The position numbers and the translations under genes are program-made. From Thermococcus alcaliphilus (lineage in GTDB: Archaea; Methanobacteriota_B; Thermococci; Thermococcales; Thermococcaceae), in assembly GCF_024054535.1 (NCBI RefSeq), contig NZ_JAMXLV010000021.1, positions 124,001 through 188,000 of the forward strand: a stretch of 64,000 nucleotides of DNA, given 5' to 3'. Of the stretch, positions 1,095-14,551 are shown in pieces; positions within the stretch are counted from its first letter, which is position 1; the number at the start of each line of letters is the position of its first letter. Below the pieces are notes generated by a model. That model saw nothing but the letters and a program-made list of their open reading frames with translations. It did no database searches and had not been told where the DNA came from.

Positions 1095-2085
1095 CTGGGA
1101 GAAAATCAAGATAGCTGCTAGGTTTATTAGAGAGGGGAAACTTGTTGCGTTTCCTACGGAGACGGTTTATGGATTGGGTGCAGATGCTCTAAATGAAAAC
1201 GCTGTCAAAAGAATCTTCGAGGCAAAGGGGAGACCTCCGGATAATCCTTTGATAATTCACATAGCCGAGTTTGATCAGGTTTATGAGCTCGCAAGAGAAG
1301 TCCCTGAGAAAGCTAAAATGCTTGCAGAGAAGTTCTGGCCGGGGCCGTTGACAATAGTGCTCCCCAAAGGGGACAAAGTTCCCTATGCAACCACAGGCGG
1401 GTTAGAGACTGTGGCGATAAGAATGCCCGCTCATGAGATTGCCCTTGCGTTGATAAAGACAAGCAAAAGACCCATTGCTGCGCCTTCAGCCAATATAAGC
1501 GGAAAGCCAAGCCCCACTCTAGCGGAACACGTTGCCGACGACTTTTATGGAAGGATAGAGTGCATAATAGATGGGGGCGAGACAAAGATAGGGGTAGAAT
1601 CAACGGTAATAGATCTAACCACAGAGCCTCCGATGCTCTTAAGACCTGGTGGGTTGCCTCTTGAGGAAATAGAGAGGGTAATCGGAAAAATAAAGATTCA
1701 TCCAGCCGTAAAAGGGAAACCGGTAAAGCTGGCAAAAGCTCCCGGAATGAAGTACAAACACTACGCCCCAGAGGCTCAGGTTATAGTCATCGAAGGAGAG
1801 CGTAAAAGGGTTAAAGAGAAGATCAAGGAGCTTGTCAAAGAGTACAAAGCTCAGGGGATGAAAGTTGGTGTAATGGCCACCGGGGATTTCTATGAGGCAG
1901 ACGCATATTTCAACATAGGGGAGAGCGAGGAAGAGATAGCAAGAAATCTATTTAAAGCCCTTAGAGAACTCGATAAGTCTGGAGTAGACATAATACTAGC
2001 TGAAGGGATTGAAGAGAGAGGATTAGGGCTTGCAGTTATGAATAGACTCAAGAAAGCGGCTGGATATAGAGTGATAAGGGTCTAA
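1060..2085 (+). CDS. sua5: L-threonylcarbamoyladenylate synthase (Sua5)
   Basis: Makes threonylcarbamoyl-AMP from threonine, bicarbonate and ATP, the first step of the t6A37 modification of tRNAs that read ANN codons; cytoplasmic. The YrdC domain covers about residues 10-205, with VAFPTETVYGLGADAL and the characteristic KGRPPDNPLIIHI segment, followed by RPIAAPSANISGKPSPT. A second domain of about 110 residues follows a PGMKYKHYAPEA linker, so this is the long two-domain Sua5 form rather than the short YrdC form. The ATG at 1060 is chosen because GGTGAGG lies just upstream and the protein then begins MTIVINM; an in-frame GTG nine bases earlier is the alternative. It overlaps the end of the glycosyltransferase gene. 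Confidence 0.93.
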   Translation: MTIVINMREGVDWEKIKIAARFIREGKLVAFPTETVYGLGADALNENAVKRIFEAKGRPPDNPLIIHIAEFDQVYELAREVPEKAKMLAEKFWPGPLTIVLPKGDKVPYATTGGLETVAIRMPAHEIALALIKTSKRPIAAPSANISGKPSPTLAEHVADDFYGRIECIIDGGETKIGVESTVIDLTTEPPMLLRPGGLPLEEIERVIGKIKIHPAVKGKPVKLAKAPGMKYKHYAPEAQVIVIEGERKRVKEKIKELVKEYKAQGMKVGVMATGDFYEADAYFNIGESEEEIARNLFKALRELDKSGVDIILAEGIEERGLGLAVMNRLKKAAGYRVIRV

Positions 2086-10341: not shown

Positions 10342-10551
10342 TCAGCTGAGTTCATCATAAACTACACTGACAACCTCACCATCGTCCAATGAGACAAAGC
10401 TCACTTTTATCTTTTTGCCAGTTTTGGGATCTACTACAACAAAATCAGGCTTCTTAAGGTATTCACTTGAAGGAACACGCCAGACATCGTCGTAATGAAG
10501 TTTTAGCTCCTTCATGAACTTCTTTAAATCCTTTTTAATCATCGTCGGCAT
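10342..10551 (-). CDS. small conserved-type protein of unknown function
   Basis: About 69 residues beginning MPTMIKKDLKKFMKELKLHY and containing PDFVVVDPKTGKKIKVSFVSLDDGEVVSVVYDEL: an N-terminal helix followed by three or four beta strands, an alpha-beta mini-fold. No recognisable catalytic residues. The ATG at 10551 is preferred over an upstream one at 10575 because GGTGATA lies four bases before it and a strong TATA-like CTTTTATAC sits about 35 bases upstream. It stands alone between the helical-repeat gene and the DUF89 gene. Function not assigned. Confidence 0.65.
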   Translation of the reverse strand: MPTMIKKDLKKFMKELKLHYDDVWRVPSSEYLKKPDFVVVDPKTGKKIKVSFVSLDDGEVVSVVYDELS

Positions 10552-10633
10552 AGGTATCACCACTATATTATACAACTTTAAAGTATAAAAGCCTTTCTAA
10601 TCGATGCTTGTCAAAAATAATATCGTCAAATGT

Positions 10634-11479
10634 CTATATACACAGCATGCTCCCTTGGGGTACCCCTAACTCCCTCGCTACCGGGCGGCATTTAGCCTTT
10701 AGAAGATAGAAAATGCGCTCATCCTTAATCTCGCTGAGAGTTTCAAAGTTCCCCTGCCCTTTTGCTATAATGACATCCGCTCTTCTGAAAATCTCCATGA
10801 ATTCCTCTGAAACCTCTCCAAAGGGAACACCCACAATTCCAGAACCCGTTGAAATTATTGTCCCAATCTCATCAAATTTAGCAGCTTTTAAATCATCTAC
10901 AGTTGCATCGTTTATTATCGGGGCTTCTTTTCCAGCAATGTAGATATCTAGGTGAGGAAAATTTTCCCGAATCTTTTTCAAGAAGAGCTTATCAAAGTAT
11001 ATCTCACCACAGTTATCAGTAAGGTACAACAAAACTTTGGCATTTTCAAGCCTTTTGAAGAGCTCTTCAGAGCGGTCTATGTAAAGCTCTTCTTTAATGA
11101 GCCTCATTATGTCTTCTTCAATCTTTTCCGGGGAGTATCCAACGGCAAAATCAATTACGTTACCCACTATTGCAAGCTTTAACGCTGTTTTAAGGTCAAC
11201 TTCCATGATAGCTTCAATCTCATTCAAGACTCTCTCAGCCAACTTGTTGGAGGACTCTTTGTAGGCTTTAAACGGATCACGAACTCCAAGGAATTTGTAG
11301 AGATCAAAAAATATCTTGCTGGACACTATTGCAGGTATAGAATCTTCTTCAAGCTTTCCCATAAGCTTTGCACAGAAAACAGCGGCTTTCTTTCTTTTTG
11401 CTAAGTCTTCTGTGCTCATTTCAATTATCCTCTGGCACTGATTCGCGATACATGTGAAACATTCATAGTGAATCTTCAT
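10634..11479 (-). CDS. DUF89 (ARMT1-like) damage-control phosphatase family protein
   Basis: DUF89 proteins are metal-dependent phosphatases that remove abnormal or surplus phosphorylated sugars and cofactors. This 281-residue copy begins MKIHYECFTCIANQCQRI, with the N-terminal cysteines typical of archaeal members, and shows the metal-site region VLYLTDNCGEIYFDKLFL (Asp-Asn), KEAPIINDATVDDL and the later DVIIAKGQGNFETL. The physiological substrate is unknown. The ATG at 11479 is chosen because upstream codons would run into the divergent MFS promoter and do not look protein-like. It is divergent from the MFS transporter across 66 bases that hold a perfect palindrome. Confidence 0.82.
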   Translation of the reverse strand: MKIHYECFTCIANQCQRIIEMSTEDLAKRKKAAVFCAKLMGKLEEDSIPAIVSSKIFFDLYKFLGVRDPFKAYKESSNKLAERVLNEIEAIMEVDLKTALKLAIVGNVIDFAVGYSPEKIEEDIMRLIKEELYIDRSEELFKRLENAKVLLYLTDNCGEIYFDKLFLKKIRENFPHLDIYIAGKEAPIINDATVDDLKAAKFDEIGTIISTGSGIVGVPFGEVSEEFMEIFRRADVIIAKGQGNFETLSEIKDERIFYLLKAKCRPVARELGVPQGSMLCI

Positions 11480-11520: not shown

Positions 11521-11538
11521 ACCGAACATTTGTTCGGT
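11521..11538. promoter_or_regulatory. 18-bp palindromic operator at the MFS promoter
   Basis: ACCGAACATTTGTTCGGT is an inverted repeat of two perfect 8-bp arms around TT. It lies just downstream of a TATA-like TTTAAAAA (about 11509-11516), and its right arm runs into the GGTGAGG ribosome binding site of the MFS gene, so a bound protein would block transcription start. A 16-of-18 match lies in the same place relative to the promoter of the DUF835 membrane gene (18165-18182). The binding regulator is unknown. Confidence 0.75.
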
Positions 11539-11545
11539 GAGGACA

Positions 11546-12829
11546 ATGGAGGTAATAGACAAGGCAAAATTCGGAAGGTTTCATTACATTCTTCTAGCCA
11601 TCCTCGGAACGGTGTGGGCATTCATAGCAATAAACACCCTTTCCGTGAGCTTTGTGATTCCTTTGTTAAGCAAGGAACCGGCATTTCAGGGGAGTCTGAG
11701 CAAACTTGGAGCAATGGGATCCGCAGCACTGTGGGGGATGCTCTTCGGTGCATGGTTTTTCGGAACAGTTGCCGACTACATAGGAAGAAAAAACGCCTTA
11801 ACATTGGCAGTTTCGCTTTTTGGATTGGGAAGCATTGCGAGTAGTTTCGCTAATAGCTTGAATCAGCTTATAGCACTTAGGTTTATAGTTGGGCTAGGTC
11901 TAGGGGGAGCTCTGCCGGTTGCAAGCTCCTATTTCGCCGAGTTCATGCCCGCAAAAATTAGGGGGGCTATGATATCTATCCTAGAAAGCTTCTGGGCTAT
12001 TGGTACTATAATAATTGGAATAGTTGCAATCCTCCTAAAAGCCAGCTGGAGAAGCATTCTCCTGTTTGGTGGAAGTGTGTTGCTGTTGCTCCCAATAATA
12101 CTCTGGCTTCCGGAGTCTCCGAGGTTTTTGGCCCTTAAAGGAAAAACAAAAGAAGCTGAAAGGGTTATAGAAAGAATACTTGGGAGAAAAGCAGAGATCA
12201 AGGTGCAAGAGGGCAAGCAAGCAAAGATAACAATAATAGAGCTCTGGAAAAAGTACGGCAAAATAACTTTAATGCTCTCAATTGCATGGTTCAGCATAGC
12301 CTTTGCTTATTACGGATTCTTCATATGGCTTCCAAGGTTCTTAGCAGCGACTTTGAAGATAACCGTCTTTAAGAGCTTCCAATACTTTATAATAACCGCC
12401 GTAGCCCAGCTACCGGGATACTGGAGTGCAGCTTATCTTCTCGAGAGGATAGGAAGAAAGAAAACGCTCTCTACATATCTGCTGCTCTCTGGCTTGGCTG
12501 GAGTCATGTTTTACCACTATGCAAGTTCAGGGAAAGTTTACATGATACTGACAAGCGCGGTCCTCTTCAGCTTCTTCAATCTCGGAGCATGGGGAGCTAT
12601 ATACGCCTATACCCCCGAACTCTATCCAACTGAAGTTAGAGGAACTGGAACAGGATGGGCAGGGGCAATGGCAAGAATTGGAGGAGGATTGGCACCAATA
12701 TTAGCAGGAAAGATCATGGAGACTTCAACCGTTGGGGTGGCTGTGCTTGTAATTGCTGTGATTTCAATTATAGGGGCTTTGGACGTCCTTACTCTCGGGA
12801 AAGAAACTAAAGGAGTGGAGTTAGTATAG
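11546..12829 (+). CDS. MFS transporter (sugar porter-like)
   Basis: A 427-residue twelve-helix permease of the major facilitator superfamily. The loop between helices 2 and 3 has the family motif in GTVADYIGRKNALTLAVSLF, helix 4 onward reads LRFIVGLGLGGALPVASSYFAEFMPAKIRG (close to the sugar/organic acid porter signature), WLPESPRFL closes the first half, and the second half repeats LLERIGRKKTL and YTPELYPTEVRGTGTGWAGAM. Substrate cannot be read from sequence; sugars, aromatic acids or other organic anions are possible. The ATG at 11546 follows GGTGAGG. The promoter carries an 18-bp palindrome, so expression is probably repressor-controlled. The DUF89 gene is divergent. Confidence 0.88.
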   Translation: MEVIDKAKFGRFHYILLAILGTVWAFIAINTLSVSFVIPLLSKEPAFQGSLSKLGAMGSAALWGMLFGAWFFGTVADYIGRKNALTLAVSLFGLGSIASSFANSLNQLIALRFIVGLGLGGALPVASSYFAEFMPAKIRGAMISILESFWAIGTIIIGIVAILLKASWRSILLFGGSVLLLLPIILWLPESPRFLALKGKTKEAERVIERILGRKAEIKVQEGKQAKITIIELWKKYGKITLMLSIAWFSIAFAYYGFFIWLPRFLAATLKITVFKSFQYFIITAVAQLPGYWSAAYLLERIGRKKTLSTYLLLSGLAGVMFYHYASSGKVYMILTSAVLFSFFNLGAWGAIYAYTPELYPTEVRGTGTGWAGAMARIGGGLAPILAGKIMETSTVGVAVLVIAVISIIGALDVLTLGKETKGVELV

Positions 12830-12928
12830 ATAATCAAGGAATGCAAGCTCCTCAACTACGGGCTTTCTTTTTCTCTTTTCGAACTCCCTCATGTAAAGGT
12901 AATCATAAAGCTTTGATATCATATCCAT
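12821..12928 (-). CDS. 35-residue basic small protein, not recognised
   Basis: A short gene of 36 codons beginning MDMISKLYDYLYMREFEKRK and continuing RKPVVEELAFLDYLY. Translation signals are strong: GGAGGTGAGAG (complement of 12931-12941) lies three bases before the ATG at 12928. Farther upstream at about 12964-12978 the minus strand reads TTTATTTATATTCGAG, a good archaeal TATA region. It ends with TAA at 12821-12823 and overlaps the 3' end of the convergent MFS gene by nine bases. The product is an amphipathic helix with a central cluster of lysine and arginine and aromatic ends; it could bind a membrane surface, nucleic acid or a partner protein. No homologue is claimed. Confidence 0.6.
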   Translation of the reverse strand: MDMISKLYDYLYMREFEKRKRKPVVEELAFLDYLY

Positions 12929-12929
12929 T

Positions 12930-13204
12930 TCTCTCACCTCCTTTCTTTTTTGGGTTTTCTCTCGAATATAAATAAATTAATTTCCTTTAAAAACATTTTC
13001 AGACCTTTTTTAGCTATGAATGAGCAGAAGAATGCAAAACTCTCAGAAAAACTGCTGAATGACCGTGTTTAAAGTTTAATGTATATATATGAGCAATCAA
13101 AGCGACTTTCCAAAGGTTTCTTTTATTAAATGGACACACCAGTACAAAGATCGAAGAGCTAAGGATTATAAACCTAGGGACAGCTCTACATATGGTGGAG
13201 GAAA
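12930..13204. promoter_or_regulatory. intergenic region: promoters of the small protein and SRP54
   Basis: Divergent control region. The left part holds the ribosome binding site and TATA region of the 35-residue gene on the minus strand. The right part holds GATTATAAACC at about 13165-13175, placed about 25 bases before a likely SRP54 transcript start, and GGTGGAGG just before the SRP54 ATG. The middle (about 13010-13140) is AT-rich with another TATA-like TGTATATATATG near 13080; no gene or clear RNA is seen there. Confidence 0.5.
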
Positions 13205-14551
13205 ATGGTATTAGATAAGCTCGGTCAGTCACTCAACAACGCCCTAAGAAAACTTGCGCGTGCAAGTACCGTTGATGAAGCTCTTGTGAGAGAGGTAGTT
13301 AGGGACATTCAGAGGGCTTTACTTACGAGTGATGTTAACGTTCGTCTAGTTCTTGATCTCACCAAGAAAATTGAGAAGAGAGCTTTAGAAGAAAAGCCAC
13401 CTGCTGGAGTTTCCAAAAAGGAACATATAATCAAAATAGTCTATGAAGAACTGACCAATTTTTTGGGAAAAGAGGCAAAGCCCATAGAGATAAAAGAAAA
13501 GCCTACTATTCTCCTAACGGTTGGTATTCAGGGATCAGGGAAAACCACAAGCGTGGCAAAGCTCGCGAGATATTTCCAAAAGCATGGATATAAAGTAGGC
13601 TTGGTATGTTCGGACACCTGGCGTCCAGGTGCTTATTTCCAGTTAAAACAATTGGTAGAGCCGTATGGAATTGAGGTTTTTGGAGACCCCGAAGAAAAAG
13701 ACGCAGTAAAGCTTGCCAAAGAGGGAGTGGAGTACTTCAAAAAGAAGGGCGTAGATGTGATAATAGTGGACTCCGCAGGAAGGCACAAGGAAGAGAAAGG
13801 ACTCATAGAAGAGATGAAGCAAATAAGCGAAGCGATAAATCCCCATGAGGTCATCCTCGTAATCGACGGAACAATTGGACAGCAAGCGTATAATCAGGCA
13901 TTGGCTTTTAAGGAGGCAACTCCCATAGGGTCGATAATTGTAACCAAGCTAGACGGTTCAGCCAAAGGTGGAGGGGCTCTTTCCGCTGTTGTAGCAACTG
14001 GAGCCCCAATAAAGTTCATTGGTGTTGGTGAGAAGATAGATGACTTAGAACCTTTTGATCCAAAGCGCTTTGTTTCAAGGCTCTTAGGATTGGGGGACAT
14101 TCAAGGGTTGCTGGAGAAGTTCGAGGAACTTAGCAAGGAGGCTGAATTCAAAGAAGAAGACGTTGAAAAGTTCTTAAGAGGGAAGTTTAACCTCAAAGAC
14201 ATGTATGCTCAGTTAGAAGCTATGAGAAAAATGGGGCCACTCCAGCAGATACTAAAGATGATCCCGGGAATGGGTTATTCTATCCCAGATGAAGTAATTA
14301 AGGTGAGTGAAGAGAGACTGAAAAAATTCAAGGTAATCATGGATTCCATGACTGAAGAAGAGCTCGAAAATCCCGAGATAATAAACTACTCAAGGATCAA
14401 GAGAATAGCAAGGGGTTCTGGCACTAGTACAAAAGATGTAAAAGAACTGCTCAACCAGTATAAACAGATGAAAAAATTCTTTAAGGGTATGGACAAAAGG
14501 AAATTGGCTAAGATGGCCAAGAAGTTTAACTTTGGAGGGTTGGGCATATGA
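13205..14551 (+). CDS. srp54: signal recognition particle GTPase SRP54
   Basis: Binds signal sequences as they leave the ribosome and, with 7S RNA and SRP19, delivers ribosomes to the membrane receptor FtsY. The 448 residues contain the helical N domain (1-90), the GTPase G domain with [15 protein letters not shown] (P loop near 106), [36 protein letters not shown], and a C-terminal M domain from about 300 including [18 protein letters not shown] and the RNA-binding [20 protein letters not shown]. Length and motifs are complete. The next gene starts four bases before its stop. Confidence 0.97.

Follow-up and report, generated by a model that had tools for sequence, protein, structure and literature searches.

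Between an MFS transporter gene and the SRP54 gene of the window, by which we mean the whole stretch of 64,000 nucleotides analyzed here, lies a short open reading frame on the minus strand, and the question was whether this frame is a genuine protein-coding gene, as a sequence-only reading of the DNA had claimed. When read from the window sequence, the frame had 35 codons followed by a TAA stop (MDMISKLYDYLYMREFEKRKRKPVVEELAFLDYLY; minus strand, 12928-12821, with the ATG at 12928-12926 and the TAA at 12823-12821), in agreement with the 36 codons that had been counted. The MFS gene (11537-12829, plus strand) is convergent with the small frame and ends at 12829. An overlap of nine bases with its 3' end had also been claimed, and exactly nine bases (12821-12829) were found to be shared. 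On the other side, SRP54 (13205-14551, plus strand) is the divergent neighbor and bears most of the conserved synteny; the divergent intergenic region between SRP54 and the small gene is about 276 bases in the window. The statement that standard gene finders drop genes this short was not strictly right. Prodigal has a default minimum of 90 bases. Judged by gene content and relatives, the genome of the window belongs to Thermococcales and probably to Pyrococcus.

Orthologs and selection on the encoded amino acids

When the 35 residues were used as the query, the window's own genome contained one clear copy, and copies also turned up in many Thermococcales. With a profile built from 32 members, about 60 of 94 Thermococcales genomes gave a match with an E value below 1e-9, with one copy per genome and in five of the six genera, and the frame was intact in these relatives, with the exceptions described below. 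No significant profile match was found in 21 non-Thermococcales genomes of the same phylum. The family consensus from the 32-member profile was close to MEWxxALYGYMxxREMERRRRKPIPEELEYVEMLRx, in which Y10 and the EE pair were invariant and P23, M1, and L34 were nearly invariant. The family proteins were 32-38 residues in length. Across Thermococcales, the orthologs identified by the profile retained the frame, the start codon, the Shine-Dalgarno box, and the promoter.

Selection was analyzed using 15 sister pairs of equal length. The data showed 58 synonymous differences on 300 sites and 39 nonsynonymous differences on 1300 sites, which corresponds to a pN/pS of 0.155; the excess of synonymous over nonsynonymous change that had been proposed as a check of the gene was present. 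Neutral simulation gave a mean pN/pS of 0.78, and none of 1000 trials was as low as 0.155. The differences were distributed over the three codon positions as 18, 16, and 63 (p = 2e-10), third positions accounting for 63 of 97. In 59 copies, the sense frame contained no stop in 1991 codons and the other five frames contained 45-113 stops each, a count that is supporting only, since the copies had been chosen by their sense frame. These results showed that the amino-acid sequence is under purifying selection. The orthologs and the synonymous excess support the central claim, and the frame is very probably a real, selected protein-coding gene with a predicted product.

Repeated loss of the gene

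The frame was broken in the Pyrococcus relatives G074, G075, G079, and G084, in which SRP54 and MFS were largely intact. In G074 (locus L012) one base was inserted in an A-rich tract, G075 and G084 had early stops, and G079 had a frameshift, while in a fifth Pyrococcus relative, the fragmented metagenome assembly G082, the in-frame ATG was probably lost. The copy in G060 was truncated, and the copies in G018 and G052 had diverged. Because the ribosome site and the codons downstream of the insertion were still conserved in G074, this break may be recent or may be a sequencing or assembly error in a homopolymer-rich stretch; recoding may also account for it.

The gene was absent from all nine genomes of one genus and from several Thermococcus lineages. 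In many Thermococcus genomes without the small gene, SRP54 adjoined an ARMT1-like or TK1484-like gene at a shorter distance, which suggests a clean deletion. On an SRP54 tree of 84 rows, at least eight changes were needed for absence and four for breakage. A frame broken in close relatives beside intact flanking genes had been put forward as evidence against a gene, and this was seen in G074, G075, G079, and G084 and probably in G082. However, because of the SRP54 tree and the intact, selected copies elsewhere, we read these breaks as secondary losses and not as evidence against coding. The comparison indicates a gene that is ancestral to Thermococcales, selected where it is kept, and, since it was repeatedly lost, dispensable or accessory.

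Predicted translation and transcription signals

A ribosome site had been placed three bases before the ATG. The Shine-Dalgarno box GGAGGTGAGAG (12931-12941, minus strand) was present and conserved across the family, but its spacing was two bases. In a motif scan of the 64-kb window, GGAGGTGAGAG was the sole match to GGAGGTGAKAR, for which the chance expectation was 0.09. The bare heptamer GGAGGTG occurred six times in the window, which is the chance level, so the ribosome site by itself is no proof of a gene. The box GGAGGTGAGAG was identical in six Pyrococcus relatives, one with a broken frame among them, and an upstream alignment anchored at the start codon showed that either GGAGGTGAGAG or GGGGGTGAGAG was kept across the family.

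In the same alignment, a BRE/TATA element such as ACAAAGCTTTTAAAC was kept further upstream across the family. The window counterpart of this element was GAAAATGTTTTTAAA, with the conserved TATA box TTTTTAAA at 12986-12993 (minus strand; -65 to -58, that is, 58-65 bases upstream of the ATG) and a BRE-like GAAAATG just upstream of it at about 12994-13000 (minus strand). The TATA-to-start distance in T. kodakarensis is about 23 bases (PMC4247193). From the conserved TATA box and this distance, transcription is predicted to start near -35, at about 12963, which would leave a leader about 35 bases long. The TATA-like stretch that had been chosen earlier as lying at promoter spacing, TTTATTTATATTCGAG (12962-12977, minus strand), is probably not the promoter. 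It is too close to the ATG, because the 23-base distance would put the start inside the ribosome site, and in the upstream alignments its TATA core was altered in loci L007 and L012 and absent in Thermococcus. Of the full transcription and translation signals claimed for the gene, conserved Shine-Dalgarno and BRE/TATA elements could be predicted from the sequence, but with another TATA box than the one named.

Gene neighborhood

In nearly all loci the small gene was head-to-head with SRP54, about 244-365 bases apart. The 3' neighbor was more variable. In 59 loci it was the convergent MFS gene in 16, a co-directional ARMT1-like gene in 24, a co-directional TK1484-like gene of 77 residues in 15, and another gene in 4. 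MFS occupied this place in Pyrococcus and a single related genus only. In G093, from a deep genus, the small gene (locus L055, about 1546-1665, minus strand) was located away from SRP54, between two other genes, and had its own Shine-Dalgarno box; by our own reading of the sequences, the flanking genes presumably resemble UPF0179 and a PxpC-type carboxyltransferase. Because this copy has a ribosome site and yet stands apart from SRP54, the small gene is autonomous, and the SRP54 link may be plain synteny.

Properties of the predicted protein

The product had been described as an aromatic, basic amphipathic helix. AlphaFold predicted one helix over residues 2-34 with a basic center (mean pLDDT 83), although the pTM was only 0.38 and a lone helix says little about function. 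However, the protein had a net charge of 0 and a pI of about 6.1, its basic run was flanked by acidic residues, and the hydrophobic moment was 0.04 for the whole protein and did not exceed 0.16 in any tested stretch. The description was kept for the predicted helix and dropped for its basic amphipathic character, and a membrane-active peptide of the basic amphipathic type was ruled out by the net charge and by moments of 0.04-0.16.

Searches of Pfam, NCBIfam, and the PDB gave no match to a curated model or a solved chain, and none of the peptide strings of the small protein was found in open-access literature; by these sources, the microprotein family is apparently undescribed. No match was found in phages or plasmids either, and a mobile-element origin was rejected on these searches. 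The profile search of PDB chains, including the solved thermococcal ribosomes, was also negative for the small protein. In contrast, the 36-residue L41e, used as a positive control, was found in thermococcal ribosome chains with E values of 1e-14 to 1e-15. Since a control of this length was easily found and the small protein was not, it is not a modelled ribosomal subunit, and a ribosomal protein of Thermococcales was rejected as a candidate. The tiny ribosomal proteins of the aL41/eL41 type in Thermococcales have a like length and a basic stretch, but the small protein has no sequence relation to them, has a net charge of zero, and occurs in no solved thermococcal ribosome. Like conserved prokaryotic small proteins of less than 50 residues, it has a short frame with a Shine-Dalgarno box and promoter of its own, is under purifying selection, is restricted to a lineage, and is absent from family databases; however, no described member of the present family was found, and its translation is predicted.

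Possible function and alternative explanations

The best explanation is that the small gene encodes a cytosolic microprotein of 32-38 residues. It would be transcribed from its own BRE/TATA promoter within the divergent region common to SRP54 and translated from the strong Shine-Dalgarno site. The product would form either a single helix or two helical halves on either side of Lys-Pro, its ends being aromatic and aliphatic and its Lys/Arg-rich middle lying between acidic residues. The most likely mode of action, though still a guess that may well be wrong, is that this helix docks on a larger protein and serves it as an accessory or regulatory subunit. Alternatively, the protein could be an accessory factor of SRP or the ribosome. 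This would give a functional reason for adjoining SRP54, and the head-to-head placement did persist from genus to genus while genes on the other side were rearranged. However, the gene is apart from SRP54 in G093, it was repeatedly lost while SRP54 stayed, no chain of a solved thermococcal ribosome corresponds to the protein although the L41e control was found in them, and plain synteny could account for the placement, so that a specific connection with SRP or the ribosome is unlikely. Still less probably, the small protein imitates the archaeal Brix (Imp4-like) ribosome-biogenesis protein, or is a stray piece of it, and competes with it for its binding site. The Brix protein, which has about 210 residues and was identified through PDB 2cxh and 1w94 and Imp4 similarity, resembles the small protein locally over about 25 residues (L-H/Y-G......R-E-M......P-I-.-E-E), and one segment of it (LHGIKLQREMGFRNLRPIREEMPFI) was the weak second match of the profile in many genomes (E 0.01-0.9). 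The hhalign score of 26.5 was higher than all of 200 column-shuffled controls (maximum 20.8; reversed 10.2), with a nominal p of 1.6e-4. However, the search in effect covered about 2000 proteins per genome; roughly 0.3 chance matches are therefore expected, and the resemblance is not significant after this correction; in addition, the orthologs are non-independent trials, the hhalign probability was only 51%, and the AlphaFold model of the Brix segment (pLDDT below 50) was too uncertain for fold comparison. The combined picture, in which a Thermococcales-wide microprotein imitates the Brix segment and tunes ribosome assembly or SRP-linked translation, its gene being paired with SRP54, would be a long shot.

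The frame could also matter for its translation or its nucleotides and not for a free protein. If it encoded a leader peptide, its translation would control the next co-directional gene (ARMT1-like or TK1484-like), and the ARMT1-like gene is indeed on the same strand in 24 loci, often opening 7-9 bases past the stop. However, the next gene is convergent in the window and in all MFS loci of Pyrococcus and genus g5, where the frame is intact and selected, and a co-directional downstream gene is thus not found in all members, MFS being convergent in 16 of 59 loci. The next gene in T. kodakarensis is closely preceded by a BRE/TATA-like sequence of its own, and the small frame there is followed by a T-rich run that resembles a terminator. 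Amino-acid selection extends along the whole length with no single-residue run, and we consider such a leader very improbable. Oligo-dT runs terminate archaeal transcription, and a T tract on the MFS strand sits inside the small frame and persists in broken copies; the A/G-rich stretch could accordingly be kept because its T-rich complement (about 12861-12879) ends transcription of MFS, or because it acts as an antisense RNA to MFS. However, the convergent gene is missing at most ortholog loci, the third-position bias and the pN/pS of 0.155 show selection on the protein, and Rfam gave only a sub-threshold match, elsewhere in the intergenic region. The codon-position bias and the loci without MFS ruled out antisense or terminator-only function, which leaves a non-coding explanation with hardly any probability.

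The terminator-like run of MFS at 12861-12879 (plus strand) is antisense to the Lys/Arg codons of the small frame, and in Pyrococcus it is possible that one sequence has a double use, as MFS terminator and as part of the small frame. The Rfam match at 13016-13088 (minus strand) was to a C/D-box snoRNA, with 21 bits against a cut-off of 50 (E 0.78), and is probably due to chance.

The microprotein gene adds a conserved, apparently undescribed protein family to a well-studied archaeal order that includes genetic model species. We take genome G024 to be T. kodakarensis KOD1 and G026 to be T. onnurineus NA1; the intact copy in G024 makes the function directly testable, and the repeated losses allow a natural comparison of lineages that have the gene with those that lack it. 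Raw-sequence reading together with comparative tests can recover genes of such size.

TK1484 and the 77-residue gene

A 77-residue gene without a Pfam match is located at 10342-10575 (minus strand) of the window. Its T. kodakarensis ortholog, by gene counting from TK1479/TK1482 (PMC9700705), is TK1484, the annotated neighbor of the small gene there. TK1484 is among the 25 most-read T. kodakarensis transcripts (PMC4247193, Table 1). These reads were considered as transcript evidence for the small gene and rejected, because a BRE/TATA-like sequence directly precedes TK1484 itself, so that its reads cannot be assigned to the small gene. Upstream of the 77-residue gene, at 10576-10640, a strongly conserved element of about CGATATTAT..TTTAACGAATGTCTAT..GAAA.CTTTTATA was found across Thermococcus.
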